Of a DNA stretch of 64,000 nt, positions 9,542 to 63,420 are shown one piece after another; within the stretch, counting starts at the first letter, position 1, and the number at the start of each line of letters is the position of its first letter. The notes beneath the pieces are model-generated. The model saw only the letters and a list, made by a program, of their open reading frames with translations. It was not told where the DNA came from and did no database searches. Source of the stretch: a virus; IMG/VR virus record IMGVR_UViG_3300009550_000010, positions 58,500-122,499 of that record; one strand, written 5' to 3'. Position numbers and translations under genes: made by a program.

Positions 9542-11746
9542 TTACACAGTTCCTACAACTTCACTGAAGGAAACTCCAGTTCTTGTAGCAACAAATGTTA
9601 GACCAATGAAGTTAATTGATCTTGCTGGTTTGATGAATATGTCAGCAAGGAACTCATTGCGGTCTATTACATCAGGTGTGTTGTTTGTATCGTCACAAAC
9701 AAGTAAGAAGTCTTGAATACCTCTCTTTGCTTGTACGTCACGTAAGAATGGTTCAACGATATTGACAAAGTTTTGTCTAGTTCCAGCATCGTTGAGTTCA
9801 AAGAGCACTGACTTAGCAGCGTTCTCTATTGATTTCTCAAGTGTGATAAACAATCTTCTAACGTTGATTCTATCGAATGCACTCTCAACTGCCATTGCAG
9901 TCTTGTCACCGAATAGAATTACACCGTCGCCAGGTCTTGAGATAACTGGGTTGATTCTTTGTGAATACAACTGATCTCTCGCATCTTGGCCAGGATTGAA
10001 TGCCAACTTGACTGTGAAGTTTAGTCCACCTCTTACCAAACCTGCTGGTGAGAACCAAGGGAACTGATCTCTATCTGTTCTTACACATAGACCTGCTATG
10101 TCTGCTGATATTGGGATGTAAACAAACTTCTTATTGAACCTATCGTAAACGTACTGGTAACCAGTATCGAATATTGCATAAGATGATGCTGTGACAGGAC
10201 CAAAGAAACCTAATACATTTTTGAGTTGATCTGCAGGGTCAGCAACGTTGACTGTTGACGCTCTGTTTGGTGAGATGAATGTAATACAATCTTTTCTCAA
10301 CTCACAGATCGAAATCAATTTGTTTGCTTTCGCCTGTTCTTCTGCTTGACTTCCGTGTGCACTACCTTGTAATAAGAATCTGATGTCGCTGTTTACGTCA
10401 TCATTGAACTTATCATATGCATTTAGAATATCTCCTAGTGGAGGATTGTAAAGACCAATTCCAGTGTAGTCTCTGCCTGATTCTAACTTATAACCTGCAT
10501 TACCTATTGAGGAGAACTTATTGTTTCTTGCTTCTTGTCCCCATGAACCAGCTGCGTCTGTAACTGCTGTGAATCCAGAAGAATAACCTGATGCTGTAAC
10601 GACTGTACCATGATGTGCATCGTCTGCAGCAGTTACATGTTGTCCAGACCAGATGTACTCTGAGTTGGATGCAAGGAAGTTCTTATAGTAGATTGGTGCT
10701 CCACCTATTCCTTGAGCATCAGATGCTTTGGATAGATTTCCAAACTTCTCTACGATAGATCCTGGTTCCTCTGTGAGTTTACCATCAACATCTACAACCA
10801 CAACGTTTACTGCGTCGTTTCTACCGTTTCTAGATCTTGTAAAATTACTGTCTTTCGGCTTGTTGAGTACTGCTCTCCATTTTACTGTGGTTAGGTCTGT
10901 TCCACCATCTGCCACACTTGTAAGAATGTTCTGCTGATCGTACCAATCAACCACTACATGTGAAGGAGATCCACCTGCTGATGAAGCAACGTTTGTTCCT
11001 GAAGCGTTAGTAAAGTAAATACCAGTTCCGTCTTTGAACTCGAACTGTGAGTTTGATTGATAGTCAACCAAGGTCTCTGTACCACCAATAACTGTACTTA
11101 CAACCTTGACATCAACTGTAGTTCCAGACTTACCAGCAACAATTCCTTTTAGAATTCCGCTTGCAGCAGCAGTAGTACCAACACCGACTGTGACTCCAGT
11201 CAATGCTTGAGTAATACCTGCTCCAACAACAACATCAGAAATGTCACCACCTGTAAATGTTGGTGTGACTGTCTGGTCAGCGAAGTTGTCAATGATCGCT
11301 ACCTTGACTCCGTTATTGTAGTCGCCAGGATATTTACCTGCGAAATACCAAGTTGTGTCGTCTTGTTTGTTGTTGTTCCAATCATCGTAGTTCTCAACTT
11401 TAAGTGAACTACCGTAGATACCACCCAATGCAGAGGTGTTCACACCAGCGTTTGCATTGTTTAGATCTCCACCTGCTGATCTTACTACGTCTAATTTTCC
11501 ACCGTATGAAAGAAAATTTGCTGCAGAATACCAGCACTCGTAATGCCTATCAGTTGTTCCGACACCAGGTGTGCCGAATACATCTATTAATTCTTTCTCG
11601 TTGTTTATTCTAGTAATTTCATTGACAGGTCCTCTTTTAAAAGGAGCAGCTAAACCCGCAACGACGTTTAGACTGAAATCCACAGCCCCACGGGTTAAAT
11701 CAACTTCTCTTACTGAAATACCTGGAGATGCTAATCGAAGTGCCAT
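9542..11746 (-). CDS. 18: Contractile tail sheath protein gp18
   Basis: 734 aa. The N-terminal 'SPGISVREVDLTRGAV' and 'GLAAPFKRGPVNEITRINNE' are the common start of myovirus sheath proteins. The C-terminal 'SIENAAKSVLFELNDAGTRQ', 'FVNIVEPFLRDVQAKRGIQD' and 'RSINFIGLTFVATRTGVSF' form the conserved core. The middle (about residues 150-330) is the variable protruding domain. It polymerises around the gp19 tube and contracts on infection. Two late-promoter-like motifs lie within 60 nt upstream. Confidence 0.97.
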   Translation of the reverse strand: MALRLASPGISVREVDLTRGAVDFSLNVVAGLAAPFKRGPVNEITRINNEKELIDVFGTPGVGTTDRHYECWYSAANFLSYGGKLDVVRSAGGDLNNANAGVNTSALGGIYGSSLKVENYDDWNNNKQDDTTWYFAGKYPGDYNNGVKVAIIDNFADQTVTPTFTGGDISDVVVGAGITQALTGVTVGVGTTAAASGILKGIVAGKSGTTVDVKVVSTVIGGTETLVDYQSNSQFEFKDGTGIYFTNASGTNVASSAGGSPSHVVVDWYDQQNILTSVADGGTDLTTVKWRAVLNKPKDSNFTRSRNGRNDAVNVVVVDVDGKLTEEPGSIVEKFGNLSKASDAQGIGGAPIYYKNFLASNSEYIWSGQHVTAADDAHHGTVVTASGYSSGFTAVTDAAGSWGQEARNNKFSSIGNAGYKLESGRDYTGIGLYNPPLGDILNAYDKFNDDVNSDIRFLLQGSAHGSQAEEQAKANKLISICELRKDCITFISPNRASTVNVADPADQLKNVLGFFGPVTASSYAIFDTGYQYVYDRFNKKFVYIPISADIAGLCVRTDRDQFPWFSPAGLVRGGLNFTVKLAFNPGQDARDQLYSQRINPVISRPGDGVILFGDKTAMAVESAFDRINVRRLFITLEKSIENAAKSVLFELNDAGTRQNFVNIVEPFLRDVQAKRGIQDFLLVCDDTNNTPDVIDRNEFLADIFIKPARSINFIGLTFVATRTGVSFSEVVGTV

Positions 11747-11783: not shown

Positions 11784-11807
11784 TATTTAGAAAAACCAGT
11801 ATTTATG
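11784..11807 (-). promoter_or_regulatory. Tandem late-promoter-like motifs before gp18
   Basis: Minus-strand CATAAATA (11807-11800) and CTAAATA (11790-11784), about 54 and 38 nt upstream of the gp18 ATG. The first overlaps the stop codon of the radical-SAM gene. Confidence 0.55.
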
Positions 11808-12414
11808 TATAGTTTCTAACGGAAACTCCACTTATATCTGAATAGTTTTTAGAAGGTTGTAAAGATTTCAAAACCTCGGTTCCCCACCTACCCGATGTTA
11901 TCTGTAAAAATTTTATACCGTGCTCTTTAGCAATACGCTTACAATGATCAACATCCTTTTCATTATAATTGAACACAATGTATTGCCACTGTGTCTTGAC
12001 ACCAAAAGAAGCACACCTCAACATAATATCGTATAATTTTTTTCCATCTTGATTTACTCTGTACTTGTTACTATCCTGTGGCAGACCATCAATAGCAAAT
12101 ATCCACTCTACATTTTTACCCATAGACATCATGAAAGATTTTGTCCACCATATTTTTGGTTTGACTGCCACAGCAGTCTGCACTACTACTTTTCTATTCT
12201 TCCTTATGCATATTGCTAACAACTCATGAAACTTTGGATGTAGTGTGGGATCTGACACCTGACCACAAAATGTTATTGCTTCAAAAAAGTCTGCAATCTT
12301 CTCCATGTCAGATAGAGTAATATCAAAACCAGGTACATGTTTGAATTTTTCTCTAGCACAACCAGGACATTTATTAGTGCATCTATTAGATATATCTAAG
12401 TTGATTCCGTACAT
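11803..12414 (-). CDS. Radical SAM domain protein (short, without SPASM domain)
   Basis: 203 aa from the ATG at 12414. 'LDISNRCTNKCPGCAREKF' carries the CX3CX2C [4Fe-4S] cluster motif (Cys12, Cys16, Cys19), after a short first beta strand as in radical SAM enzymes. Further strands such as 'ITFCGQVSDPTLHPKF' (glycine-rich SAM-binding region) and 'VEWIFAIDGLPQDSNKYRVN' fit the partial TIM barrel. These enzymes make a 5'-deoxyadenosyl radical from SAM. At 203 aa it is much shorter than SPASM-type enzymes, but the gene just upstream encodes a separate SPASM-like domain that overlaps it by 19 nt. It lies between genes 17 and 18; substrate unknown. Confidence 0.85.
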   Translation of the reverse strand: MYGINLDISNRCTNKCPGCAREKFKHVPGFDITLSDMEKIADFFEAITFCGQVSDPTLHPKFHELLAICIRKNRKVVVQTAVAVKPKIWWTKSFMMSMGKNVEWIFAIDGLPQDSNKYRVNQDGKKLYDIMLRCASFGVKTQWQYIVFNYNEKDVDHCKRIAKEHGIKFLQITSGRWGTEVLKSLQPSKNYSDISGVSVRNYT

Positions 12415-12665
12415 GATCCACAATAATGATGACAAACATTAGGAGCATTTTTTGGATTGTTTTTTATAGTATCAAAAAAAGATTGCCACTCCTCTGATTG
12501 TATTATATCATTAATTGAATCTATATTCTCTACCTTGAATTTTTCCTGAACAAGTTCTGGTATGAGATCCATATTTTCATGATCCATCCAACAGCATGGC
12601 AGTAAGTACCCAGTAGCACTCCACCCCAAGAACCCCCACTTATCTAAACACTTAGGTGTAATCAT
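12396..12665 (-). CDS. Free-standing SPASM/twitch-like Fe-S domain protein
   Basis: 89 aa with six cysteines: Cys6, the pair Cys24-Cys25 in 'GYLLPCCWMDHEN', and Cys78, Cys82, Cys85 in 'NVCHHYCGSC'. The pattern of an aromatic/Gly strand ending in 'P-C-C-W', then 'IQSEEWQSFFDTI', then a terminal Cys cluster is what is seen at the C-terminus of SPASM radical SAM enzymes, where it binds an auxiliary [4Fe-4S] cluster. Here it is a separate gene placed before the radical SAM gene. Its ATG overlaps the gp17 stop by 4 nt, and its end overlaps the radical SAM start by 19 nt. I infer that the two products work as one enzyme. Confidence 0.75.
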   Translation of the reverse strand: MITPKCLDKWGFLGWSATGYLLPCCWMDHENMDLIPELVQEKFKVENIDSINDIIQSEEWQSFFDTIKNNPKNAPNVCHHYCGSCTEST

Positions 12666-14317
12666 CCATTATATTCCCACATGTAGGATCTATCTCCATA
12701 CTCATCTGCCTTCTTCCATCTGTCACCTTCGGCATCTACCACCTCGTCATCCTCAAGTCCATCAAGCACAAAACCAAATGGTGCCATGTCTTGTTCTATA
12801 GCATTCTTTTGTTCTTCATATATTCTCTTTCTCACATCAGAATCAGTCATCTCTTTAAAATAGTCTTGTGCAACTAACCACGAGAATATAACCAGACACA
12901 TAGCAAGGTCATCGTTACATCCATCTTCAGCCTCAAATGATTGTTTCTTAGAAATAAACGTAGTAAGTTCACTTATGATATTATAATCACAGAACGTCAG
13001 TTTGTCCTCTTCTATCAAGGTCTTCAGGTTTGAACAACCTATCTTCTTGGTTGTTGTGCTCATCTTGACACCCAACTGTGTTTTTACACCAGAGAATCCT
13101 GATCCTACAATCTGACCAGCACGTCCTCTCATTGCAACCATGAGTAAGTTTTCATACTCTAAGTCATAGAATAATATAGAAGCAACCTGATCACCAATAT
13201 CATTTACCTCACATAGTACATAAGCATCGTTGTACGCTTTACCTACATCTTGAATGATAGAGGGAAAAAGCATGGGTTTGACTTGATTGTCTCTATAGGT
13301 AGCAACGACTCTATAAGGAAACTCTGTAATGTCAGCTACTATAAAAGCACTGTAATCTTTTCCTACACCTCGTGCTACGTCAACAGTAACAATATAATCT
13401 CTACCCTTGAATGGTCTTTCGTATACTGATAATTTACCATTTTGTTCTACAGGTGTCTCATACACCAGTGCCTTTAATTTTGCTGCACTGATTAATGTAT
13501 CAACAGATCCTAAAAATTCACACTCGAACTCAATAGCAAACTGTTGTTTACTTGTGTTTCTTATTGTTTGTTCTTTCCACTTAGCATCTCTACCTGGCAC
13601 TTCAGACCAGTGAACTTCAGTTGCGACATATTCGTTGTTTCCTCTTTCAGCATCGTGCCACATTCTATAGAAGTGATTCATACCATGTGGTGTAGATACT
13701 ATTATGACCTTGGTCGATTTACCAGAAGATATAGTGGGATATACAGACGCAAAGAAATCATCTGCCAGATGGTTCTGCACGAAAGCAAATTCATCAAGGA
13801 AGATAATGTTGAATGACATACCTCGAACTGCTGATGCTGATGTAGAAGCAGCAATAATTTTAGAACCGTTCTCTAGTTCTAATGAACCCTTGTTCCATGC
13901 AACAATTCCCTGTTGCATCCACCTCGGCAAGTTCTCATATGCCATCTGTAATCTTCCGAGCAAATCTCTAGCAGTTGCTGCCTTGTTTGCGAGGATACCG
14001 ATGTTGACATTATCATTGAATATTGCATAGTGCAAAAGATATGATACCACTGTCGTTGACTTACCAGTCTGACGTGGCATTTTACAAATGTTGAATCTGT
14101 GTTTATGGAAATTCTTGATTAACTTCTTCTGATACTTGTACATGTCAAAGGATACCAATCCCTCGTCCACGTTTACAATTTTTATATGTTTCTCAGTAAA
14201 ATATACTGGGTCACTCTTACATTTCAAGAACTCTACAATATGTTCTTCAGTAAATTCTTGAGTTGTGTTTGCCTTTTTTAGATTCGGATTACCAAGATAG
14301 ATGTCACTTGTAGGCAT
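12662..14317 (-). CDS. 17: Terminase large subunit gp17
   Basis: 551 aa packaging motor. ATPase domain: Walker A 'MPRQTGKSTT' (about residues 80-89) and Walker B 'NIIFLDEFAF' (170-179), followed by 'IIVSTPHGMNHFYRMWHD', the coupling motif. RNase H-like nuclease domain: 'IVTVDVARGVGKDYSAF' and 'EAEDGCNDDLAMCLVIFSW' supply acidic residues. It cuts concatemeric DNA and pumps it into the gp20 portal. Length is close to the family norm (about 550-610). Confidence 0.97.
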   Translation of the reverse strand: MPTSDIYLGNPNLKKANTTQEFTEEHIVEFLKCKSDPVYFTEKHIKIVNVDEGLVSFDMYKYQKKLIKNFHKHRFNICKMPRQTGKSTTVVSYLLHYAIFNDNVNIGILANKAATARDLLGRLQMAYENLPRWMQQGIVAWNKGSLELENGSKIIAASTSASAVRGMSFNIIFLDEFAFVQNHLADDFFASVYPTISSGKSTKVIIVSTPHGMNHFYRMWHDAERGNNEYVATEVHWSEVPGRDAKWKEQTIRNTSKQQFAIEFECEFLGSVDTLISAAKLKALVYETPVEQNGKLSVYERPFKGRDYIVTVDVARGVGKDYSAFIVADITEFPYRVVATYRDNQVKPMLFPSIIQDVGKAYNDAYVLCEVNDIGDQVASILFYDLEYENLLMVAMRGRAGQIVGSGFSGVKTQLGVKMSTTTKKIGCSNLKTLIEEDKLTFCDYNIISELTTFISKKQSFEAEDGCNDDLAMCLVIFSWLVAQDYFKEMTDSDVRKRIYEEQKNAIEQDMAPFGFVLDGLEDDEVVDAEGDRWKKADEYGDRSYMWEYNG

Positions 14318-14906: not shown

Positions 14907-15542
14907 CTATGATTCCTTACCTATATTTAGTGAGATGTGATCTGCGATTATTTTATGTCCTTGTTTATTTGGATGACCACCAGATCTCGTATCACTTTTT
15001 TTGTATTTTCCTTGACAATAGTTTTCTGGGTTTTTTATTCTTGTGCCAATTAAATCAGTCAAGCATGTGAGTGGTTTCTTATCCATGTTGCGATACCATG
15101 ATGATTCTATTTTCATGACTTCTCTTTTGATTGTCACAAAATAATATTTTATATTTTTTGATTTGAAATAATTTTCAAGTAAAAATTTATTTTTATGAAA
15201 ATTTGCCACATGTAAATTATCATTATGTAGATGCTCATAATATATTTTTGACAATTGCTTTGTATAACCATTTTTTAATACGTTACCTATACTAAGGTAA
15301 TCATAAGCATCTCGTGATGACTGACGTATCTCTGTTCTTGATGGTTTTGTAAATTGTATTACTGCTAAATCAACCTTATTATTCTCACAATGATCTAATG
15401 TCGTACGTAAAATACTATCATTTGATTTACCATTTTTACCCAAATTGATATGGTCTTTACCTATCAATGTAGAAAATCTATCTTTCTCAGGATTATCAAG
15501 TTCGTCACCATAAGTCCAAGAACATCCATCAAATAAGATCAT
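14907..15542 (-). CDS. SGNH/GDSL-like hydrolase-fold protein (family member 1)
   Basis: 211 aa. The N-terminal strand ends in 'LFDGCSWTYGDEL' with the likely nucleophile Ser8, followed by 'GKSNDSILRTTLDH', 'LAVIQFTKPSRTEI' and the C-terminal 'GGHPNKQGHKIIADH'. These are the blocks of the SGNH fold (Gly-x-Ser, Gly/Asn, late His). The Asp three residues before the His, usual in DxxH, is not present. It is very similar to the protein at 56669-57283, a recent duplication by appearance. Unusually, it lies inside the terminase operon, between genes 16 and 17. Substrate unknown; esterase, O-acetylhydrolase or acyltransferase are the options. Confidence 0.8.
   Translation of the reverse strand: MILFDGCSWTYGDELDNPEKDRFSTLIGKDHINLGKNGKSNDSILRTTLDHCENNKVDLAVIQFTKPSRTEIRQSSRDAYDYLSIGNVLKNGYTKQLSKIYYEHLHNDNLHVANFHKNKFLLENYFKSKNIKYYFVTIKREVMKIESSWYRNMDKKPLTCLTDLIGTRIKNPENYCQGKYKKSDTRSGGHPNKQGHKIIADHISLNIGKES
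14924..14930 (-). promoter_or_regulatory. Late-promoter-like motif before the Lys-rich gene
   Basis: Minus-strand CTAAATATA inside the end of the SGNH gene, 22-28 nt upstream of the ATG at 14902. It would drive the Lys-rich gene and gp17. Confidence 0.5.
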
Positions 15543-53552: not shown

Positions 53553-54158
53553 TTATATAGTCGATGTCAATTTACCTATGATATAATCTGCGACTCTCTT
53601 ATGACCTTCAATATTGAAGTGGCAGAGCGACCTTTTCTTTGTATCGCTATAATAGTATTTTTTATTTTTTCTTCTACCTAATAATGTTTTTTCCCTATCC
53701 ATAATGTTGGAGTTGGCGATTGTCTGCAATTTACCTTTACAATTTCTACTCCAAATATTATCACCGTACACATTATAATATTGTAATAAGAGTAGAGGAA
53801 TATTTTTTTTCTCAAACTCCTGTTCTAAAATGTAACGATTCTTGTAAAAATTCAGTGCACCCACTTCATCATTATAATAATTTTCATAAAAAATAGAATC
53901 CTTAGTAGGGATTAGTTTTTTGTTAAAATGTACTCTCTCACAATGTGTCAACATTATAATTGCATGATCACATATATTATTTTCTAAAAATTCCAATGTT
54001 CGCATTGTAATTAAGTCATTACTTGCACAACCTATAGAGTCATTGAGATGATCTGCTTTGAAATGTTTACTTACTAATGTAGAAAACCTCTGACCCTTAC
54101 GATCATCTAACTCACCTCCAAATGTATAAGAGCAACCATTAAAATACAGAAACATCAT
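53553..54158 (-). CDS. SGNH-like protein (family member 2)
   Basis: 201 aa from the ATG at 54158, overlapping the carbamoyltransferase stop by 20 nt. 'LYFNGCSYTFGGELDDRKGQ' gives the Ser block, 'GCASNDLITMRTLEF' the Asn block and 'HFNIEGHKRVADYIIG' the late His. The 'IMLTHCERVHF' segment replaces the usual Q-x-T-x3-R-x-E. Basic, Tyr/Asn/Lys-rich, as in its relatives. Substrate unknown. Confidence 0.78.
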   Translation of the reverse strand: MMFLYFNGCSYTFGGELDDRKGQRFSTLVSKHFKADHLNDSIGCASNDLITMRTLEFLENNICDHAIIMLTHCERVHFNKKLIPTKDSIFYENYYNDEVGALNFYKNRYILEQEFEKKNIPLLLLQYYNVYGDNIWSRNCKGKLQTIANSNIMDREKTLLGRRKNKKYYYSDTKKRSLCHFNIEGHKRVADYIIGKLTSTI

Positions 54159-55530
54159 ACTTCTCCGAAAATAGTTCTGCATCTTCCCATGTATTCACCA
54201 TAGGTTTTCCCTTTATGTTTAATGAAGTATTCAACAATACAGGACAATCTGTTCTTCTATACCACTCCTCCAGTATGGGTCTCAGGATGCTCTCCGATGT
54301 CTCAGGTACCGTTTGTACTCTCGCACTATTATCAACGTGTATACAAGCAGGTATCGCCTTTGGTTGCTTACACTGATAGACATAGGACATGTATCTCGAA
54401 TGGGAAGGCATATCAAAGAAGTCCTGACAATGCTCCTCCAAAACCGCAGGTGCAAAGGGTCTGAACTTCTGTCTCTTTTTGATCTCATTTACTCTGTCTT
54501 TGTTTGCAATTTTCCTCGGATCCGCCAATAGACTTCGATTACCGAGAGCACGAGGACCAAACTCAGCACGGCCATTTGCAACGCCAGCGATTCCTTTTTC
54601 GATGAGGCAGTCAACTATTTCCCTTGGATTACAGTAATGTTGTATATTATATCCCAAGTAGGGAGAGAATTCAACCTTGCCACCATATGATAGCAATGCT
54701 GCTCCTAAAGCACCACCTGCGTCACCAGGATTCGGCATGATCCACATATTGTACATTTCCCTCAAACCAGTGTTGCAAACACAGTTGAGTGCCACTCCTC
54801 CACCATAACAAATGTTCTCACTGTACTTTGCTGCTCTTGCGAATATCTCATTGAGTTCTAATTGCAGTATACGCTCTGCACTCTTTGCAATATCAAACTT
54901 ATCGTAAGACTCAGGTATCTTTACACCCTTATGACAATTCTGATGCCTCAGTCTCTCCACCACGTTCATATAAACAGGATTACCATATGCTGCCATACCC
55001 ATAAAGATATATTCTTCATCTAAAGGTCTAAGACCTGCCCATTTGGTTAATGCACTATACCACAGTCCAATAGAGTTGGGATATCGCTGCGACCAGACTT
55101 TTTTATACTTCGCCTTACCTTCTACCATCTTTGCAGTCCATATAGACGTACAATCCCATTCTCCGATACTATCAATGACTACACATGCTGCTTCTTCAAA
55201 TAAAGATGTCTGAAACGCTGCTGCAGCGTGAGAAAGGTGATGTGGGAAATATTGAGTCGGTTTGAGTCCTAAATGTCGTTCACTGAAAGTTGTACTGTAT
55301 TGACCTGCATAAAACTGTCTTGTTTTCTTCAAAAGCGGTTTTTCGTAAAAAGCAATGTCATCATTACCTTCATGCATATTAAATATCTGTGCAGTGGCAG
55401 ATGCAGTGCAATCTAAGTTGCGATCATGTTTTTTCTTGGAATATCGTTCTGAATGTGTTGCAAAACGTATTTTGCCATCGTTTACAACAGCAATTGCAGA
55501 ATCGTGGAAACCTTCGCTAAAACCAATCAT
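54139..55530 (-). CDS. Carbamoyltransferase, NodU/CmcH/TobZ type
   Basis: 463 aa. The Kae1-like N-terminal domain has 'GFSEGFHDSAIAVVNDGKI', 'FPHHLSHAAAAF' (metal-binding His97, His98, His101), 'CVVIDSIGEWDCTSIWT' and 'CYGGGVALNC'. The C-terminal domain begins 'VANGRAEFGPRALGNRSLLA' (residues 318-337), the signature of O-carbamoyltransferases that use carbamoyl phosphate and ATP to carbamoylate sugars. It ends at 'GKPMVNT' plus 13 residues, shorter than bacterial NodU (about 560-600 aa). It is coupled to SGNH genes on both sides. Confidence 0.92.
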   Translation of the reverse strand: MIGFSEGFHDSAIAVVNDGKIRFATHSERYSKKKHDRNLDCTASATAQIFNMHEGNDDIAFYEKPLLKKTRQFYAGQYSTTFSERHLGLKPTQYFPHHLSHAAAAFQTSLFEEAACVVIDSIGEWDCTSIWTAKMVEGKAKYKKVWSQRYPNSIGLWYSALTKWAGLRPLDEEYIFMGMAAYGNPVYMNVVERLRHQNCHKGVKIPESYDKFDIAKSAERILQLELNEIFARAAKYSENICYGGGVALNCVCNTGLREMYNMWIMPNPGDAGGALGAALLSYGGKVEFSPYLGYNIQHYCNPREIVDCLIEKGIAGVANGRAEFGPRALGNRSLLADPRKIANKDRVNEIKKRQKFRPFAPAVLEEHCQDFFDMPSHSRYMSYVYQCKQPKAIPACIHVDNSARVQTVPETSESILRPILEEWYRRTDCPVLLNTSLNIKGKPMVNTWEDAELFSEKYDVSVF

Positions 55531-56171
55531 AATAACTTCATTATATCAGATGCAATCATGATATGCCCAAGTTTATTGGGGTGATTACCTTTTGCTCGTG
55601 GATATTTGGATTTATTCAACTGCAAATCAAAAGGCATCTTAGTTCTCTTGTTTATAGTCATCATTATGTGAGGAATCGACATATTTGTCAACTTGTTTTT
55701 TATAAGATGAAAAAATAGCATTTCATCAGACTCACCATACTTATCATGGTACAATTCCTCGTAATATCTAATCCACCACTCTTTTCCATCCATAATATTC
55801 CCAGTGCTCATATAATGTTCTTTATCAACCATAATACTGTCCCACTCTGACTGTATTTTTGGTTCTCTACGATATCTTACATTAGGATAAAGTTTTTTTT
55901 GTATATTTCTCTTATACCTTGTTGCTGTACCTCTTTTATCGTACCATTCAGTTCTACTAGGGTGTGTCATTTGGGCAAGGACTAAATCAAACTCTGAAAT
56001 ATCACTTTCTAAAAATCTTCTTGCAATACCGTGATTTGATAAACCATTCCAACCTAAATTTGTGACTTCTGCGTTTATTCTACGACCTACAAGAGTACTG
56101 AAACACTCTTTGGATCTATCATTCAGTTCATCACCATTTGTCCAACTACATCCTATTGTTAATAATTTCAT
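55527..56171 (-). CDS. SGNH-like protein (family member 3)
   Basis: 214 aa. 'KLLTIGCSWTNGDELNDRSK', 'GWNGLSNHGIARRFLE', 'LVLAQMTHPSRTEWY' and 'GNHPNKLGHIMIASDI' are the four family blocks. Its stop overlaps the carbamoyltransferase ATG (ATGA), so the two proteins are probably made together. Its start overlaps the next SGNH gene by 26 nt. Confidence 0.82.
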   Translation of the reverse strand: MKLLTIGCSWTNGDELNDRSKECFSTLVGRRINAEVTNLGWNGLSNHGIARRFLESDISEFDLVLAQMTHPSRTEWYDKRGTATRYKRNIQKKLYPNVRYRREPKIQSEWDSIMVDKEHYMSTGNIMDGKEWWIRYYEELYHDKYGESDEMLFFHLIKNKLTNMSIPHIMMTINKRTKMPFDLQLNKSKYPRAKGNHPNKLGHIMIASDIMKLL

Positions 56172-56685
56172 GAATCTTATTTGCGATGACTTTGTGCCCT
56201 ATTGTAGTCGGATGTCGAGTTTCATCCATTGGAAAATTCAAATCAAAGATATTCAGGTCAAATTTCTTTGATTTAGTGAACTTATCCGTTGTTACTATTA
56301 TACATGGTATATTGTTGATTGCAAAGTAATCTCGAAGTCCTTCAATAGCGAAATTTTCTTCACAGTCACCATATACATCATCATACATGTTCTCATACCA
56401 ATATTTCCATATCTTCTTTCTCTTTTCTGTCAATCTCTTATGATTGAGTGCAATACCAATCTCAACCCACTTTTTTTCGTCATGATACTCATGTCTTGAA
56501 CGGGATGTCAATTGTATAATCGCTAAATCGTAATTTTTAGGACTTTCTTCGATAGTTGTTCTCCATATAGAGCGATTACTATAACCAACCATAGCAATGT
56601 TGGTTAATTCGGCATTTAACCTACTTGCAAGAAATTTTGGATAGTCTCCAGCAGCAAATGACGAACCGTTAGAAAATATTTTCAT
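56146..56685 (-). CDS. SGNH-like protein (family member 4)
   Basis: 179 aa from the ATG at 56685; a TTG frame from 56700 is less likely. 'MKIFSNGSSFAAGDY' has G-S-S in place of G-C-S, then 'GYSNRSIWRTTIEE', 'LAIIQLTSRSRHEY' and 'TRHPTTIGHKVIANKI'. The 17-nt overlap with the upstream SGNH gene suggests coupled translation. Confidence 0.78.
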   Translation of the reverse strand: MKIFSNGSSFAAGDYPKFLASRLNAELTNIAMVGYSNRSIWRTTIEESPKNYDLAIIQLTSRSRHEYHDEKKWVEIGIALNHKRLTEKRKKIWKYWYENMYDDVYGDCEENFAIEGLRDYFAINNIPCIIVTTDKFTKSKKFDLNIFDLNFPMDETRHPTTIGHKVIANKIHEIINNRM

Positions 56686-57283
56686 AAACTTCTTTTGCAA
56701 TCATCTGATGACCCCTTTTATTAGGATGACCAGTAACATAGTTCTCAGGATGCCACCTTTTACCACCCAATAATTCTCTTACGTTCATTATTGGTTCTTT
56801 ATCGCATAATTCAGACCATGATGAATTATTATATGAACCCAATTTTTTTATATTCTGTATACAGAGGAAAAAGTATCTTATATTTCTTTTTTTAAAATAA
56901 TTCTCTAATAAAAATTTGTTTTTATGAAAATTTGCAAAATCATCATCAACATTTTGAAAATTCCTGTAATATTCCAATGATCCTTCGTCTTGATTTTCGG
57001 CAGTGATGTGAAAATACTTTTTTCTACCTTTTTTCAACAATTCTCTACGAGAAAATTTGGTAAATTGAATTACTGCAATAGATACTGGATTTTTTTCACA
57101 AAATTCTAAAGTAGTCCTTAATATTCCATCATTACTCTTACCGCATTCACCAATACTTTTATAAATGCGAGGTTTTGCACCATCCCTTAGTCCCATTCTG
57201 GCGACTAGATGAGGATAAGCGTCTTTTTCGGGATTTTCAAGTTCATCACCATAGGTAAATGAACATCCATCAAATAATATCAT
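56669..57283 (-). CDS. SGNH-like protein (family member 5)
   Basis: 204 aa. 'MILFDGCSFTYGDELENPEK', 'GKSNDGILRTTLEFCE', 'IAVIQFTKFSRREL', 'NFHKNKFLLENYFKKRNI' and 'TGHPNKRGHQMIAKEV'. It is very close to the SGNH protein at 14907-15542 in the terminase operon, including the 'FHKNKFLLENYFK' stretch, so one is probably a copy of the other. ATGA overlap with the gene upstream. Confidence 0.82.
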   Translation of the reverse strand: MILFDGCSFTYGDELENPEKDAYPHLVARMGLRDGAKPRIYKSIGECGKSNDGILRTTLEFCEKNPVSIAVIQFTKFSRRELLKKGRKKYFHITAENQDEGSLEYYRNFQNVDDDFANFHKNKFLLENYFKKRNIRYFFLCIQNIKKLGSYNNSSWSELCDKEPIMNVRELLGGKRWHPENYVTGHPNKRGHQMIAKEVYENIF

Positions 57284-57879
57284 CTAAATGACCTTTGTTT
57301 TATGTGATTGATAATGTCTTTCGCAAGAAGATTGTGTCCTAATGAATTTATATGCCCTCCACCATTGGGTTTTTCAGTCGGATATCCATCTATGACAAAA
57401 TCATAATCGATATCTATCTTTGAATTGGGTACAGAAAGAAAGATGAGAGGAACACCCTTTGATTTACAAATACTTTTGATATTATTATACACCATTCTCT
57501 CATAAGCGTTAGCTTGTGTCTCAGAATAGATATTCATGTAGTAGTCTTTCCAAAATCCTTGGTCTATAGAAGACCTATACTTTGGATTTCCAACATAACC
57601 AGGATTTACTTTCATCCACTTCTGTTTTTTGTCAGAATACCATTCAGTTCGATTGCGAAATGACATCTGAATGACCACTAGGTCACACTCATCCAAAAAA
57701 TTATAGTTATCAACAGAAATATTCCTAAGAATTCGTAAATTACTTGCCCCTGACCTCGAAAAATTATATTCTTCCGCTTGAAAATGCTCTGATACCTTTC
57801 TACTGTACCTTTGTGTCTCATAATCTCTCAAATATCCCTTTCCTTCAGTGAAAGAGCATCCATCAAAATAAAATTTCAT
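57280..57879 (-). CDS. SGNH-like protein (family member 6)
   Basis: 199 aa. 'MKFYFDGCSFTEGKGYLRDY', 'SGASNLRILRNISVDN', 'LVVIQMSFRNRTEWYSDKKQ' and 'GGGHINSLGHNLLAKDI'. The Q-M-S-x3-R-T-E-W segment and 'WMKVNPGYVG' resemble the protein at 58586-59134 ('NRTEYYIDGKWENINPG'). ATGA overlap with the upstream small gene. Confidence 0.8.
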   Translation of the reverse strand: MKFYFDGCSFTEGKGYLRDYETQRYSRKVSEHFQAEEYNFSRSGASNLRILRNISVDNYNFLDECDLVVIQMSFRNRTEWYSDKKQKWMKVNPGYVGNPKYRSSIDQGFWKDYYMNIYSETQANAYERMVYNNIKSICKSKGVPLIFLSVPNSKIDIDYDFVIDGYPTEKPNGGGHINSLGHNLLAKDIINHIKQRSFR

Positions 57880-58034
57880 TCAAAATGGGGTTTTACAATC
57901 ACTTGATCTACAGTATAGCACGATTTTACTCCTGCTTTGATCATTTGTTGAAATGTTACTCGTTTTTTTTCTGCTTCCTCTTCAGAAAGGTGATCAAAAA
58001 CGAGTTTTTTGTCTAAGTAAACGTCAAAATCCAT
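57876..58034 (-). CDS. Small conserved phage protein, paralogue of 52557-52730
   Basis: 52 aa from the ATG at 58034; a TTG start at 58070 is unlikely. 'MDFDVYLDKKLVFDHLSEEE' parallels 'KYDIYVGEEKVHSSITEEEM' of the gene at 52557, but the C-terminal half differs ('KSCYTVDQVIVKPHFE'). Overlaps the next ATG (ATGA). Function unknown. Confidence 0.7.
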   Translation of the reverse strand: MDFDVYLDKKLVFDHLSEEEAEKKRVTFQQMIKAGVKSCYTVDQVIVKPHFE

Positions 58035-58106
58035 GTTTTGCCAAAATTCGAGTAAACCTTGATGCCACAAACACCATTAAAGTCACTTTGTAGTCATCGG
58101 GGGTCT

Positions 58107-58505
58107 TCATTTACCATTACTAATTACAATTCGGGTCTTACAACCCTTAGAACCTCGTACTAAACGCTTTTTAGGACCTTCAGTCTTGACTCTTTGCCAC
58201 TCTTTTATTCTATCATAGCGATCTTCTGTGAAAAAGTACTGTTTGATGTACCATTCTTCCCAGTTTTTATGACCTTTATGACGATTACACTCTTCACAGC
58301 AACAAATACAGTTAGGTGTCTCGTGTCTGCCCCCTAGAACTTGGGGATGAATGTGATCTAAGGTCATTTGATCACGATGTTCTCCACAATATGCACAAAC
58401 ATGGTTCCATTTCCCCTTTATATCGTCCTTCCATCTCTTCTTTGCCTCTGATCTCGTTTGTGCCTTCATCTGATACAGGTATTCCTGTGGAGAAGCGAGT
58501 AGCAT
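58107..58505 (-). CDS. HNH endonuclease
   Basis: 132 aa. 'HVCAYCGEHRDQMTLDHIHP' holds the first zinc Cys pair (Cys37, Cys40) and the catalytic Asp50-His51; 'CCEECNRHKGHKNWEEW' supplies the second Cys pair (Cys70, Cys73) and the final Asn/His. A McrA-type HNH fold. It may be a homing endonuclease that helps spread the accessory genes around it, or act in DNA cutting. No clear Shine-Dalgarno is seen at 58505; an ATG at 58469 (MKAQTRSEAKKRW) is an alternative start. Confidence 0.9.
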   Translation of the reverse strand: MLLASPQEYLYQMKAQTRSEAKKRWKDDIKGKWNHVCAYCGEHRDQMTLDHIHPQVLGGRHETPNCICCCEECNRHKGHKNWEEWYIKQYFFTEDRYDRIKEWQRVKTEGPKKRLVRGSKGCKTRIVISNGK

Positions 58506-58585
58506 ATGTTCTATGTGTGTGTTCTAACTTATATATGCTCTACTCTTCGTAAATATATGGGTCTTCCCTACGTAATTTCCACATT

Positions 58586-59134
58586 TTATAGCGGAAACGT
58601 ATCGCTTTTATTAAACGTTTCATAGATTCGGTGTGTAAGTATTCGATGACCAACCCTGTCAGGGTGTTTTGTTGCACCTAAAGGGATGTCAGGAGTATTT
58701 AGTTGCACATCATAACCGTATTTTGAATCTTTAGAGTTTGTTAAGAGTAACAATTCTGTATTATTTGCTGCAAAATGATCGATGATTGCCTGTCGAAACA
58801 TAAATTCATCACTTTCGCCTAATTCTTCACTATAATAGTCTCTATAGTAGTCTAAAAACTTCCTTCCTTTGCCTCTACCAGGATTAATATTCTCCCATTT
58901 CCCATCAATATAGTATTCTGTTCGGTTTTTATACGTCATTTGTATGACTCCAAGTGAAATATTACTCAAATCTTGCTCAATTGTCTTTCGATATATCTTT
59001 CGATTGCTACAACCTGCCTCTGATATGTCTATATAATCTTCATTCCATCTCTTTGCAAGTAGGTTTGCAAACCTTTCGTCTCTATTTTCAAGATTAGCAC
59101 CGTATGTCCACGAGTCCCCATTAAATAAAATCAT
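58586..59134 (-). CDS. SGNH-like protein (family member 7)
   Basis: 182 aa. 'MILFNGDSWTYGANLENRDE' has the classical G-D-S, the only copy here with Asp in that place; then 'AGCSNRKIYRKTIEQD', 'LGVIQMTYKNRTEYYIDGKW' and 'ATKHPDRVGHRILTHRI'. A good ribosome site (AAGGGA) precedes the ATG. First gene of the minus-strand SGNH block, divergent from the plus-strand sulfotransferase genes. Confidence 0.82.
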   Translation of the reverse strand: MILFNGDSWTYGANLENRDERFANLLAKRWNEDYIDISEAGCSNRKIYRKTIEQDLSNISLGVIQMTYKNRTEYYIDGKWENINPGRGKGRKFLDYYRDYYSEELGESDEFMFRQAIIDHFAANNTELLLLTNSKDSKYGYDVQLNTPDIPLGATKHPDRVGHRILTHRIYETFNKSDTFPL

Positions 59135-59300: not shown

Positions 59301-60248
59301 ATGAAACCTAGATTCCACATGCATCCTGGTGTTGGATGGGCAGCAACCACGCCTTTCTATTACACATTACAGCATTTGAATCGCTATATGACAACAGGTG
59401 TCAATAAAGAAGTTCAATACTGGGCATTAGCATCAAGAGAAAATACATTTGACTTTCATAGGTATAAAGCAAAAAGAATATCGAATGCATTACACCAAAC
59501 TGGTTTAAAAATCAAGAAACCACCTCTTGCAAAAAAATTACATCAAAATGTCTTTACAAAATCGTGGTTAGAGAGATGGTATACCCCACCGTTTACTGTC
59601 GAAAATTACTTATCATATTATACTCTTCTCAATGACCATAAAGATGACTATGCTGCTGTTGGTGATTTTTCAACCAATAATGTTGATATACCTGATGTAT
59701 TCTTATGTTCGATTGCTGAGAAACTACTTGAACACTTTGATGTCAAAGTAACGATTACATTTGCAGACCCCATCACCCGTTTCTACTATGAAGTCGGTAG
59801 ATTATGTGGTATGAGGCAATATGGCACACTTGCTGCTCTTGGAAAACAACAGAAATTATTTAAGAGTTATATTGATAGTAAAAAATTTGAAAGCAGTGTC
59901 TTCGACAGACATAATGTAGACTATGCACAAACTTACAACAAATATTGCAAGGCATTTGGTAAAGATAATGTATTACCTATCATCATGGAAGAGTTTTGGG
60001 AACCAAAGAAAGAGAAAGAACAAAAAGAGAGACTATCAGAATTCATAAGTTATAGAATAGATAAAATATCACCAAATTTCTTTTGGCCACTGTCACATGC
60101 AGATGATACATATCTTTTAGATCAATCCAAAAGTGTCAATGAACCACTGACACCCGAACTGATTAAATATGCAAAAGAACCCATGAAACACTTTTATGAT
60201 GATTGGGCAAAAGTTCTTCCGATGCCAGAATCATGGAACTATGATTGA
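59301..60248 (+). CDS. Sulfotransferase-like protein, GWAATTP type
   Basis: 315 aa. 'HPGVGWAATTPFYYTLQHL' near residue 8 corresponds to the sulfotransferase P-loop that binds the PAPS 5'-phosphate. 'YAAVGDFSTNNVDIPD' and 'KVTITFADPITRFYYEVGRL' fit the later region where R-D-P-x2-R holds the 3'-phosphate; here Arg-Asp is replaced by Ala-Asp, which may weaken PAPS binding. 'NVLPIIMEEFW' and 'LSEFISYRIDKI' are shared with the two following copies. It overlaps the next gene by 8 nt. Confidence 0.78.
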   Translation: MKPRFHMHPGVGWAATTPFYYTLQHLNRYMTTGVNKEVQYWALASRENTFDFHRYKAKRISNALHQTGLKIKKPPLAKKLHQNVFTKSWLERWYTPPFTVENYLSYYTLLNDHKDDYAAVGDFSTNNVDIPDVFLCSIAEKLLEHFDVKVTITFADPITRFYYEVGRLCGMRQYGTLAALGKQQKLFKSYIDSKKFESSVFDRHNVDYAQTYNKYCKAFGKDNVLPIIMEEFWEPKKEKEQKERLSEFISYRIDKISPNFFWPLSHADDTYLLDQSKSVNEPLTPELIKYAKEPMKHFYDDWAKVLPMPESWNYD

Positions 60249-61194
60249 TTTCTTATTAAATGCAGGGACTGGTTGGTCTGCAACCACACCTTTTTATTTT
60301 ACTCTTGCTAAACAGCAAAAGTATTGTCATAGTGGGCATCAAAAGGAGATGGGTTATCTCAAACTCATGAGTAAGAAGTCAAAACAAGATATATCAACTT
60401 ATAAGCAAACTATACTTGATAGAACAAGATCTAATGAAGATTGGATCAAAATGGTTGACAATAGAGAGTTTGTATCAAGAGAAGAGACAGAAGAATTACT
60501 CAAACCTCCTTATACCATTGATAGGTATATTGATTACTACCTCAGACTACACGAAAAGACAAAAGGCACCTATCAGGCGGTGGCAGACTTCACAAACTAT
60601 AACTTTGAACTACCAGAAGAGTTTCTAATGGAGTGGAGAGATAAGATGTCTCAACACTTCAACGTAAAAGTCACCTTTCAGTTTCGTGACCCGATTCGTC
60701 GCTATTTCTCTGAGGTTGGTAAGTTTATTCAGCACCCTCTTATACTAACAGGTATTGATTCTCATAAGATCAAGCACAATGCCTATGTTAAGTCAAAGCA
60801 GCATATCAAACTCTTTCGTCACTACATCTCATCATATCCTATCTTCCCACCTGCATACTATACACAGAACATTCAGAAGTTTGTGAGAGTTTTCGGTCAA
60901 GAGAGAGTCTTGCCGATCATTATGGAGCAGTTTTGGAATCCAGAGAGACAAGCAGAACAATGTGAGAGACTTTCGAGATTCCTAGACTATAAGATTACAA
61001 AGATACATGAGAATGTCTATTACCCCGACAGAGGAACCAAAGCACCACATTACGTAGGTCTCAAAGATCAATCTGGTAGTGACTTCGAGGACATGACTCC
61101 TGAGTTATACGAATGGTCTAAACAGTATCTGGGTTTTGTATATTCAGACTGGGAGAAATGTTACGAAACCCTACCAGAGGAATGGAATCGTTGA
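60241..61194 (+). CDS. Sulfotransferase-like protein, GWSATTP type
   Basis: 317 aa from the ATG at 60241, which overlaps the upstream stop. 'LNAGTGWSATTPFYFTLAKQ' (P-loop), 'YQAVADFTNYNFELPEEFLM', 'KVTFQFRDPIRRYFSEVGKF' (complete R-D-P-x2-R with Ser/Glu following), 'ERVLPIIMEQFWNPERQAEQ' and 'DYKITKIHENVYYP' mark a full-length member. The stop lies in the -35 of the next promoter. Acceptor unknown. Confidence 0.82.
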   Translation: MIDFLLNAGTGWSATTPFYFTLAKQQKYCHSGHQKEMGYLKLMSKKSKQDISTYKQTILDRTRSNEDWIKMVDNREFVSREETEELLKPPYTIDRYIDYYLRLHEKTKGTYQAVADFTNYNFELPEEFLMEWRDKMSQHFNVKVTFQFRDPIRRYFSEVGKFIQHPLILTGIDSHKIKHNAYVKSKQHIKLFRHYISSYPIFPPAYYTQNIQKFVRVFGQERVLPIIMEQFWNPERQAEQCERLSRFLDYKITKIHENVYYPDRGTKAPHYVGLKDQSGSDFEDMTPELYEWSKQYLGFVYSDWEKCYETLPEEWNR

Positions 61195-61219
61195 CAGGTA
61201 GTAAAGAATACTTTATAAT
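61191..61219 (+). promoter_or_regulatory. Consensus sigma70 promoter
   Basis: TTGACA (61191-61196), 17-nt spacer, TATAAT (61214-61219): both hexamers match the consensus exactly. The -35 overlaps the TGA of the upstream gene. It starts a transcript at about 61226 with a leader of about 245 nt before the next ORF. Confidence 0.85.
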
Positions 61220-61225
61220 AAAAGA

Positions 61226-61387
61226 GTAACGACGGTTACGTCGGGAGTGACTGAATAATCTTTCTGGCAAATGCTGGATAAGGTGATGAGACACAGGTGG
61301 TGCTGCTTCGAGAGAAGAATCGATTTACCAATCGGGTCTCAGGCAAGAACGTTTTTACTCTGTAGTAATGCCCGTTCTTTATTGGTA
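61226..61387 (+). ncRNA. Candidate structured leader or small RNA
   Basis: No convincing gene lies between 61195 and 61469 (275 nt). Hand folding gives CGACG/CGTCG with a 4-nt loop (61230-61243); TGAGAC (61287-61292) closing with GTCTCA (61336-61341) around two inner hairpins, CTTC-GAGA-GAAG (61306-61317, GNRA loop) and CGATT-TACC-AATCG (61321-61334); then AAGAACG (61345-61351)/CGTTCTT (61373-61379) with inner TTACT/AGTAA. The TACC loop can pair with GGTA at 61384-61387, a pseudoknot. Candidates include cyanophage/marine RNAs such as wcaG, manA or Downstream-peptide motifs, not confirmed here. Confidence 0.55.
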
Positions 61388-61469
61388 TACAGGAACCCAA
61401 TCTCCCTTTTTTCCTCTTTTCATGATGGGACGTTGTTGATTAGAGGAACCCTTTTTTATTTGGAGAGTT

Positions 61470-61559
61470 ATGCCTTTATTTCTAATTGTACTCGGAGCAT
61501 CTGGATTGGGTGCTACTCTTGCACTATACATACTTCGTAAGTACGATCCTCACGCATGA
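61470..61559 (+). CDS. Small membrane peptide, 29 aa
   Basis: MPLFLIVLGASGLGATLALY, then ILRKYDPHA. One transmembrane segment with a positively charged end. GGAGAG lies 4 nt before the ATG, and its TGA overlaps the next ATG (ATGA), so it is coupled to the sulfotransferase gene. It is the first ORF after the structured leader. TCTCC at 61401-61405 could mask the ribosome site. Function unknown. Confidence 0.72.
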   Translation: MPLFLIVLGASGLGATLALYILRKYDPHA

Positions 61560-62683
61560 AGAAACCTACATTGTGTATGTTAGCAGGGCATGGTTGGTCT
61601 GCAACCAGTCCTTTATACTACACTTTGGCACACAACCATAATTATTGTCATGGTGGACACTATAAAGAAAATAAGTATCTAGAACATATCTATCATTATA
61701 ATAGAGGAGATGAAAAGTTACTAAATGAAAAAAGATTTAGATTTCGCCAACTCTTCAATGGTTTAAAGAGAGATCAAGAAGACGGTCCAAAAGCAATGAC
61801 ATTTGGTGAGAGAGATAGACCATCTACAGTATTACATACAGGTGGACCTAATGCTCATTGGGATCCAGAATTTGTAAATGATTTCTTTTCACTACCACAT
61901 ACCTTTGAAAAGTATATTACTTACTATAAGAAACACTACGAAGCAATCAAAGATACTTATTCAGCAGTTTCCGATTTTACTATCAATAATATCTACAAGC
62001 CTGAATCTTTTATAAACATAACTGCTAGGTATCTAAAACCACATTTTAATGTCAAGGTATTGATGATATATCGTGACCCTGTTCAAAGATTATGGTCAAA
62101 TATACAATTTACATGGTTTCAAAAAAATAAACATAGAGGATGTGTTGACCCATATCATATGTTCTGGAGAAAGATAGCACATCATTACGATGATCCGAAA
62201 GAAAAAGACTATGACTTAAATGTTATCGAAGCTTACACAGAAGGGTATCGAAGATGGAGTAATGCTTTTGGTAAAGAGAATGTTCATAACATAGTCATGG
62301 AAGAGTTGTGGAGTGAGGATAAAGATATCGCTCAAAAGTCAAAGAGAGAGTTATCAGACTTTTTAGAGTATGAAGTTACTGACCTGTTTGCAAACTGTTT
62401 TGTACCTGAACAGGGCTCTAAAGCACCTCATGTTGAACATCTCTCAGATCAATTTATGAGTAATCAAGTTGATCTGTCAGAAGAACAACTCAACACTGCT
62501 AGAGCTTTGATGGATAGAGCATATCTTAGATTTGAGGAAATGTATGGTTATATTCCAAAAACATGGACAGAACTCAAGAGTGTGGAAGTACCAGATCTAA
62601 CTAATCCAAATGATTATGATATCGAGGAGGTATTGAGAAGAGATCCATTATCAGGTCCTCAAAAACTTTCTGATTATAAATGA
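61556..62683 (+). CDS. Sulfotransferase-like protein, GWSATSP type
   Basis: 375 aa, the largest of the group. 'CMLAGHGWSATSPLYYTLAH' (P-loop), 'YSAVSDFTINNIYKPESFIN', 'KVLMIYRDPVQRLWSNIQFT' (R-D-P-x2-R, then Ser), 'VHNIVMEELWSEDKDIAQKS' and 'FLEYEVTDLFANCFVPEQGS' follow the same plan as the upstream copy. An insert after residue 70 and a C-terminal extension add length. ATGA overlap with the SGNH gene that follows. Confidence 0.83.
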   Translation: MKKPTLCMLAGHGWSATSPLYYTLAHNHNYCHGGHYKENKYLEHIYHYNRGDEKLLNEKRFRFRQLFNGLKRDQEDGPKAMTFGERDRPSTVLHTGGPNAHWDPEFVNDFFSLPHTFEKYITYYKKHYEAIKDTYSAVSDFTINNIYKPESFINITARYLKPHFNVKVLMIYRDPVQRLWSNIQFTWFQKNKHRGCVDPYHMFWRKIAHHYDDPKEKDYDLNVIEAYTEGYRRWSNAFGKENVHNIVMEELWSEDKDIAQKSKRELSDFLEYEVTDLFANCFVPEQGSKAPHVEHLSDQFMSNQVDLSEEQLNTARALMDRAYLRFEEMYGYIPKTWTELKSVEVPDLTNPNDYDIEEVLRRDPLSGPQKLSDYK

Positions 62684-63420
62684 AACTTATCACACTTGGA
62701 TGTAGTTGGACATTTGGTATCGGGTGTGGATATGAAAGAGGTGAGAATATAAAACAATACAAAGCACACTGTACAAGTGAAGAGAATGCTAACAAGTATT
62801 CTTTTCGTGCTCTATTATCAGAGAGACATGGGTACATTAACCATAATCTCTCAAGAGGTGGGTCAAGCAATCAAATGCAGTTTCGGAAAGCGACCAAGTA
62901 TTTCACAGAGCGTCCACAAGAAAAAACTATAGTCTTATGGGGAATCACTTCAACCGCCCGTAATGAAGTCTTTCTGGCGAAACATCATATACTCAAAAAT
63001 ATTGCTTATAATACCATGTATCGAAAGGTCAATGCAGTGGAGTATGCCGAGAACTTCTACAATCATGAACACGAGGTGAAGATACTCGCACAACGAATGC
63101 TTCACTGGAATCTCTTCTTTGAATCACTGGGTATAGAGAACTATTGGTTTGATACATTCAATACTCACAAGTACCCTTACGAAATACCAAGACTTCTACC
63201 AGTAGACCTACTCACTCGTATGACAGTTGAGGATCAGACATACCATGAGTCAACATGGCAACCAATAAACGAAATTACTGGAGAGACAAAGAAAACCACT
63301 GAAAGAAGAATACAACTGGGTGTTATCAAAAGTTTACTCAACCCTCACTCAAAACATCCTACCAAGAAGGGTCATGCTATGATAGCAGATATATTTGACA
63401 AATGTCTAAACCTAAGTTAA
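62680..63420 (+). CDS. SGNH-like protein (family member 8)
   Basis: 246 aa, the longest and most divergent SGNH copy and the only one on the plus strand. 'KLITLGCSWTFGIGCGYERG', 'RGGSSNQMQFRKATKYF', 'IVLWGITSTARNEVF' and 'SKHPTKKGHAMIADIF'. An insert lies at residues about 100-200. It is sandwiched between two sulfotransferase-like genes with overlaps on both sides (4 and 19 nt). Confidence 0.8.
   Translation: MKLITLGCSWTFGIGCGYERGENIKQYKAHCTSEENANKYSFRALLSERHGYINHNLSRGGSSNQMQFRKATKYFTERPQEKTIVLWGITSTARNEVFLAKHHILKNIAYNTMYRKVNAVEYAENFYNHEHEVKILAQRMLHWNLFFESLGIENYWFDTFNTHKYPYEIPRLLPVDLLTRMTVEDQTYHESTWQPINEITGETKKTTERRIQLGVIKSLLNPHSKHPTKKGHAMIADIFDKCLNLS

Follow-up and report, generated by a model that had tools for sequence, protein, structure and literature searches.

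A radical SAM core and a SPASM/twitch-like protein encoded as a conserved pair of phage genes

Radical SAM–SPASM enzymes are usually built as a single chain. Here, we describe phage genes in which the two parts are encoded separately, as a conserved pair that is under strong purifying selection, with the two partners in constant company, natural fusions in some relatives, conserved cysteines in both proteins and a barrel fold in the model of a fused relative. The two products probably constitute one enzyme in two chains, namely, a twitch-type radical SAM enzyme with its one auxiliary Fe-S cluster supplied in trans. The pair is a member of a large, mostly uncultured virus family.

The gene pair between terminase and tail sheath

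The window, that is, the whole stretch of 64,000 nucleotides analysed, belongs to a virus record of 122,499 bp. On its minus strand, the genes follow one another in transcription in the order terminase large subunit, 89-aa protein, 203-aa protein and tail sheath. Both small ORFs, their 19-nt overlap and their place between gp17 and gp18 are as the original prediction had described. The relevant features are as follows:

12662..14317 (-): terminase large subunit, gp17-like (T4-type), upstream flank (Pfam Terminase_6N, 9.8e-23; PHROG 2)
12396..12665 (-): small SPASM/twitch-like protein, 89 aa, Cys 6, 24, 25, 78, 82 and 85 (ORF, Pfam, conservation, dN/dS)
12591..12611 (-): GYLLPCC, small-protein residues 19-25, first conserved Cys block (P23, C24 and C25 invariant, G19 in at least 90%)
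12420..12434 (-): CHHYC, small-protein residues 78-82, second conserved Cys block, CX3C (C78 and C82 invariant)
12396..12414 (-): 19-nt overlap of both genes, with the core start codon within the small gene (ORFs; kept in relatives)
11803..12414 (-): radical SAM core, 203 aa, CX3CX2C (ORF, PF04055, PHROG 21308, conservation, dN/dS)
12358..12381 (-): codons of the CX3CX2C motif (core residues 12-19), the predicted [4Fe-4S] site for SAM binding (invariant Cys; the cluster is predicted)
12247..12270 (-): FCGQVSDP, core residues 49-56, probable counterpart of the GGEP motif (conservation and profile alignment)
9542..11746 (-): tail sheath, gp18-like, downstream flank (PHROG 23, 1.4e-120)

The core ORF comprises 203 aa when counted from its ATG, or 210 aa if an upstream TTG is taken as the start, and is separated from the sheath gene by 56 nt. 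The window and all 19 close relatives inspected retain the overlap of 19 nt as well as the core ATG. Among 17 sequences (136 pairs, overlap region excluded), the small gene has a median dN/dS of 0.087, calculated from 132 usable pairs, and the core gene one of 0.077, from 120 usable pairs. The retention of the ATG and the overlap together with the low dN/dS of both genes argues that the pairing is not due to chance. A programmed frameshift yielding a fused product was considered and is not supported, given the conserved ATG with which the core starts and the fact that inspection of the overlap by eye showed no slippery run.

The window terminase is nearest to that of marine virus AG-345-D19 (81%) and stands at 75-78% to those of Synechococcus and Prochlorococcus T4-like phages. 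Only a short spacer lies between terminase and sheath in AG-345-D19, and S-T4 and S-SM2 carry a single short gene at this position, without the pair. Judging from these comparisons, the gp17–gp18 slot of this T4-like marine phage houses the pair as an accessory cassette. Outside the window, the same virus record encodes another radical SAM protein (474 aa; L027, G000:C1:41243-41755, minus strand), which does not match the core profile of the present family.

Cysteine motifs and predicted folds

The window core scores 26.4 bits (E = 9.1e-6) against the Radical_SAM profile PF04055, just under the cut-off of 29.5, which is exceeded by two relatives (L057, 30.7 bits; L156, 34.0 bits), and matches PHROG 21308, ‘radical SAM’, at 1.7e-14. 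The cysteines of the CX3CX2C motif (C12, C16 and C19) are invariant in 56 of 56 cores, as are G51, D55 and P56 of the FCGQVSDP stretch, which, according to a profile alignment with solved enzymes, is probably equivalent to GGEP in other members of the superfamily. The core falls below the cut-offs of the named NCBIfam radical SAM families (TIGR04038, TIGR04317, TIGR04321 and others), the best score being that for TIGR04038 (31.1 bits versus 129.7). Sequence searches for solved relatives gave none with query A2 and none meaningful with query A1; query A6 reached macrocyclic archaeol synthase (3.7e-5) and viperin (0.014). Near-threshold scores of this kind might also bear on a Baltic Sea survey reporting 261 ‘ahbD’ viral genes and only three contigs with both PF13186 and PF04055 (PMC9301287): cores just below the Pfam cut-off, as in the window, would yield such a result, although this is a guess.

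The small protein matches the Pfam SPASM domain (PF13186) with 25.5 bits, above the cut-off of 21.5. Together with CX3CX2C and PHROG 21308, this match bears out the expectation that a radical SAM core and a SPASM/twitch-like domain are encoded as separate genes in the late operon. Residues P23, C24, C25, C78 and C82 never vary across 46 diverse small proteins, and at least 90% of these have C6 and G19; C85 is not conserved. The full SPASM motif contains seven cysteines, CX9-15GX4C followed by CX2CX5CX3C and a last C. The small protein retains its start (C6, G19, C24), the remainder being reduced to the conserved CX3C (C78, C82), so that with five conserved cysteines it does not display the seven-Cys, two-cluster pattern. 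The five (C6, C24, C25, C78 and C82) are sufficient for the approximately four that a twitch domain uses to hold one [4Fe-4S] cluster, the cluster itself being predicted. The twitch domain is described as a shortened SPASM with one auxiliary cluster (PMC9012708). Given that the second Cys set of the two-cluster SPASM is absent, the small protein is, on its motifs, nearer to a one-cluster twitch domain than to a full SPASM. Of the six-Cys SPASM-like domain initially proposed, the six cysteines and the SPASM match stand, whereas the sixth cysteine is not conserved and the pattern is not that of a full SPASM.

The connection to SPASM is made, at the level of sequence, by this one Pfam match plus the fused relatives of the window pair. 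When the small-protein profile was aligned with the C-terminal part of the fused relative L057 using hhalign, the probability was 99.9, the two alignments sharing rows and hence not being independent. Five fused relatives were compared with Pfam SPASM, of which one scored above the cut-off, three below it and one had no listed match.

For L057 (287 aa), a structural model was obtained with a pLDDT of 87 and a pTM of 0.66, with a linker below pLDDT 50. The model supports a partial TIM barrel well for this fused relative, as distinct from the window protein, and the pTM and the poor linker suggest that the arrangement of the barrel and SPASM domains is loosely defined. The best match in the PDB is BlsE (Z 15.8, rmsd 3.2, 192 residues, 12% identity), with SuiB, Mmp10, SkfB, NifB and MoaA within about 1.5 Z of it; PqqE and DesII also appear below BlsE, and many radical SAM enzymes exceed Z 12. 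With several enzymes this close to BlsE, the nearest function is not indicated. BlsE is a glycoside decarboxylase of blasticidin S biosynthesis that acts on a sugar moiety (PMC3715490); it is a single chain, the likeness lies mainly in the barrel, and a shared fold shows no shared substrate. The window small protein modelled alone reached a pLDDT of 83.5 and had no match among solved structures (best Foldseek E 4.0, no chain with Z of 2 or more).

In enzymes of the BtrN/MoaA type, the twitch domain is described as a C-terminal extension of the same chain (PMC9012708). These enzymes share with the window pair a radical SAM barrel and a shortened SPASM with one auxiliary cluster, predicted in our case, and differ in that the window encodes the domain in a separate upstream gene (core and domain form one chain in 16 of 138 copies). 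MoaA is found among the fold matches of L057; BtrN is not among the matches listed. The first two cluster ligands of BtrN are presumably spaced CX17C, the same as C6 and C24 of the small protein. The SPASM enzymes SuiB, SkfB, PqqE and anSME resemble the pair in its Pfam SPASM match above the cut-off and in the barrel fold of the L057 model, but carry a seven-Cys, two-cluster SPASM compared with the five conserved cysteines here. A further parallel, to be taken as a lead only (17.2 bits versus a cut-off of 170), is provided by the NCBIfam family NF033640 (N_Twi_rSAM), made up of radical SAM proteins with a twitch domain: of the 398 positions of its profile, 15-68 are matched by the small protein of L170 and 112-268 by the radical SAM core of L179, placing the twitch region before the core, albeit in one chain rather than two genes.

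Family size and gene order

In an annotated phage collection (50,697 records), both parts were found only in Pelagibacter phage Mosig EXVC030M (small protein, E = 7e-5; core, E = 2e-36), and the records of Campylobacter phages CP220 and F379 showed a core match alone. In Mosig, the pair is likewise split (Mosig_00084/Mosig_00085; core 39% and small protein 30% identical to those of the window) and annotated as ‘molybdenum cofactor biosynthesis enzyme’ and ‘hypothetical protein’, but the core comes first, unlike in the window, and the genes lie in a cluster with an aminotransferase, a carbamoyltransferase, a methyltransferase and a nitroreductase. Uncultured virus contigs yielded 87 relatives with the core profile, 105 with the small profile and 391 with a broader small profile, of which the best 80 were kept in each case. 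The open frames of 134 non-contained loci were scanned with both profiles.

Among the 138 copies of the small domain recovered, 72 follow a core gene, 49 precede one as in the window, 16 are fused in the order core–SPASM, one lies at a contig end and none stands alone; paired copies include 104 distinct small sequences. The set is biased toward relatives of the window pair and includes overlapping pieces of single contigs, such that the copies are not all independent, and the first small copy of a tandem core-small-core-small array (L045) was counted as preceding a core even though it also follows one. In 35 further virus copies, obtained with the broader small profile, the small gene comes first in 28 and second in 6, with one copy at a locus edge and, again, none alone. 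The case that would have spoken against the original prediction, a small protein without a radical SAM gene, was thus found in 0 of 138 and 0 of 35 copies, each set including the single edge copy mentioned. Conversely, no partner was counted for three strong-scoring cores, of which L007 and L031 begin where their contigs end and the third belongs to the tandem L045.

After removal of identical cores and short domains, 103 pairs were available for the tree, and cores more than 93% alike were then dropped, leaving 77. On this tree, the three arrangements require eight changes, and the starred branches alone call for at least three changes for the small-first order and at least two for fusion. 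The group of the window consists of 21 rows, all with the small gene first (support 98). Consequently, the split and the position of the domain before the core are real in the window, but the reversed order pointed out in the original prediction varies among relatives and was rejected as the key feature. Distances between cores correlate with those between small proteins (r = 0.655, 77 pairs), more strongly among the 30 small-first pairs (r = 0.915), and none of 999 shuffles was as high, which suggests that the two proteins have been inherited together.

The family seems to extend to cellular genomes. A first genome scan gave no cellular relatives, and a second one gave 158, of which the best 80 were taken and overlapping loci then removed; this set contains 17 fused loci, 10 core-first pairs and 68 cores without a small domain at E 1e-3. 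Eight of the ten core-first loci (L170-L177) show 39-44% identity, the other two (L178 and L195) being distant (26%). Six of the eight are probably viral contigs in MAGs, because their neighbours resemble those of the virus loci. The remaining two, L170:3932-4899 and L173:3947-4899, lie in Hyphomicrobiales MAG contigs with bacterial-looking genes on both sides and look chromosomal. As L170 and L173 carry the pair among different bacterial genes, core and small gene appear to form a unit complete in itself. A plasmid search with the fused L057 returned three Nocardia records with a core match at 25%.

In L170, the pair is located just downstream of ORFs that resemble, by eye, guaB and guaA. This location could be taken to indicate that the core, like viperin or MoaA, has a nucleotide or nucleoside as its substrate; viperins and MoaA stand high in the fold list, and the fused L052 weakly matches a viperin-like profile (16 bits versus a cut-off of 180). 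All such matches are, however, far under the family cut-offs and common to many radical SAM barrels, and we know of no twitch domain in viperins, so that a nucleotide substrate appears quite improbable.

Proposed enzyme and its substrate

From the conserved pair with its radical SAM and twitch-like motifs we infer the complex, the clusters, the electron role and the timing, and hence every further step of the following scheme. The 203-aa chain would form the radical SAM barrel, binding SAM on the [4Fe-4S] cluster of CX3CX2C and generating the 5'-deoxyadenosyl radical. The 89-aa chain, a detached twitch-type domain with one auxiliary [4Fe-4S] cluster, would dock on this barrel and either accept an electron from the substrate radical or position the substrate, like the in-chain domain of BtrN and MoaA. 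The gene overlap would keep the two chains in step, with both made together late in infection.

Several relatives carry genes for Fe-S supply next to the pair. In L006:5499-5750 (78.7 bits) and L021:639-875 (79.5 bits), a NifU-like gene (PF01106) stands between the terminase and the small gene, immediately upstream of the latter; close to the pair, L068 encodes a FeS_assembly_P protein and L071 an A-type carrier. That three different supply genes adjoin the pair fits an enzyme of high Fe-S demand, and a published survey describes a T4-like marine virus genome that combines 12 radical SAM genes with an A-type carrier and PaaD (PMC5332604). The same neighbours could instead mean that the small protein, rather than being a subunit, serves the core as an Fe-S carrier or electron donor, loading or reducing it. 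The lack of a structural match for the small protein alone would agree with such a role, as would the intermolecular electron transfer reportedly required by the auxiliary-cluster enzyme PapB (PMC10470005). Nevertheless, a general carrier would be expected also without a core, and the one-to-one pairing with no orphans, the natural core–SPASM fusions in the usual order and the Pfam SPASM match make a carrier improbable.

With regard to the substrate of the proposed two-chain enzyme, the pair could be a maturase of a late phage peptide or protein, either RiPP-like or modifying a virion protein such as that of the adjoining sheath. The peptide-acting SPASM enzymes SuiB and SkfB are among the best fold matches, and the pair resides in a structural operon: of the 76 small-first pairs, 45 have the terminase upstream and the sheath downstream, 11 have the terminase upstream and run off the contig end, two are cut at the upstream edge and 18 are elsewhere. 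Yet, the fold matches reflect the general barrel, other copies occupy different places in the phage genome with neighbourhoods devoid of the sheath, and the two bacterial MAG contigs hold the pair with no phage-like genes in view. A nearby precursor peptide, which had been suggested as a possible substrate, was not seen in the 56 nt between core and sheath, which leaves the peptide substrate unsupported. A maturase is thus unlikely. A gene of 72-75 aa that comes after the core in sister phages (cluster 20) was also considered as a precursor and rejected, because S-T4 and S-SM2, which lack the pair, have a counterpart, equated by place and size rather than by alignment and annotated as endonuclease VII or hypothetical protein.

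The favoured substrate, if a somewhat doubtful one, is a sugar or glycan belonging to the host envelope or to the virion, with a protein target not far behind, the guess being prompted by one clade in which the small domain is fused to a glycosyltransferase. In L151, the small domain runs on into a glycosyltransferase in one chain (PHROG 1962, 4.1e-13), and L146 and L152 resemble it by eye; a similar fusion in L046 was not confirmed, with Pfam giving the SPASM match only and PHROGs nothing. DegT aminotransferases and carbamoyltransferases occur near the pair in other phages, and radical SAM cassettes of pelagimyophages are reported from a host-recognition region that also holds glycosyltransferases (PMC7029224). 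The guess is weakened by L170 and L173, which carry the pair without visible sugar genes nearby, and by the possibility that, in other phages, the tailoring clusters belong to variable regions where genes of this kind abound in any case (PMC7029224). In a Pfam tally of 73 neighbour families, 2OG oxygenases are the commonest (4 of 73) and no glycosyltransferase is among the 25 families listed, the neighbour evidence as a whole stemming from few clades without a background comparison.

Other genes accompany the pair or share its phage. Downstream of the core, seven loci (L013, L015, L018, L019, L021, L022 and L023) encode a protein of 276-287 aa that looks sulfotransferase-like by its P-loop; Pfam gave no sulfotransferase match and a PDB search just one (0.34). 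Longer radical SAM proteins with cysteines before the core (cluster 9, e.g. L148:5230-6588) are encoded within three genes of the pair at 20 loci and might form another family, with the cluster domain at the N-terminus. Elsewhere in the window, a carbamoyltransferase gene (54139-55530, minus strand; Carbam_trans_C, 5e-51) lies amid a row of short SGNH-like ORFs, possibly another set for small-molecule or sugar tailoring in the same phage. About eight SGNH hydrolase-like ORFs were noted by eye (53553-59134 and 14907-15542 on the minus strand, 62680-63420 on the plus strand), with weak matches for those tested (57280-57879, Lipase_GDSL_2, 0.019; 14907-15542, DUF6071, 0.0033). Three consecutive sulfotransferase-like ORFs follow at 59301-62683 (plus strand), two of them recognized by eye only and the third (61556-62683) just under the Sulfotransfer_1 cut-off (2.7e-4).

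Literature searches that covered few subscription papers returned nothing relevant on stand-alone, discrete or split SPASM domains in radical SAM enzymes and no report of a split pair in work on radical SAM, SPASM or twitch proteins in phages. In its widest form, which we regard as rather doubtful, the two-chain enzyme would represent an obligate two-subunit radical SAM class spread by viruses, with an exchangeable auxiliary-cluster protein, free to change order, split and fuse, joining, for instance, a glycosyltransferase, moving between phages and bacterial chromosomes and modifying surface glycans late in infection. The role of the auxiliary cluster of SPASM/twitch enzymes has been called long elusive (PMC9012708) and largely enigmatic (PMC10470005). 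A natural enzyme with this cluster on a separate small protein would make the role testable by adding, omitting or swapping the subunit, and the family offers a reading for genes now annotated, as in Mosig, as a molybdenum cofactor biosynthesis enzyme and a hypothetical protein.
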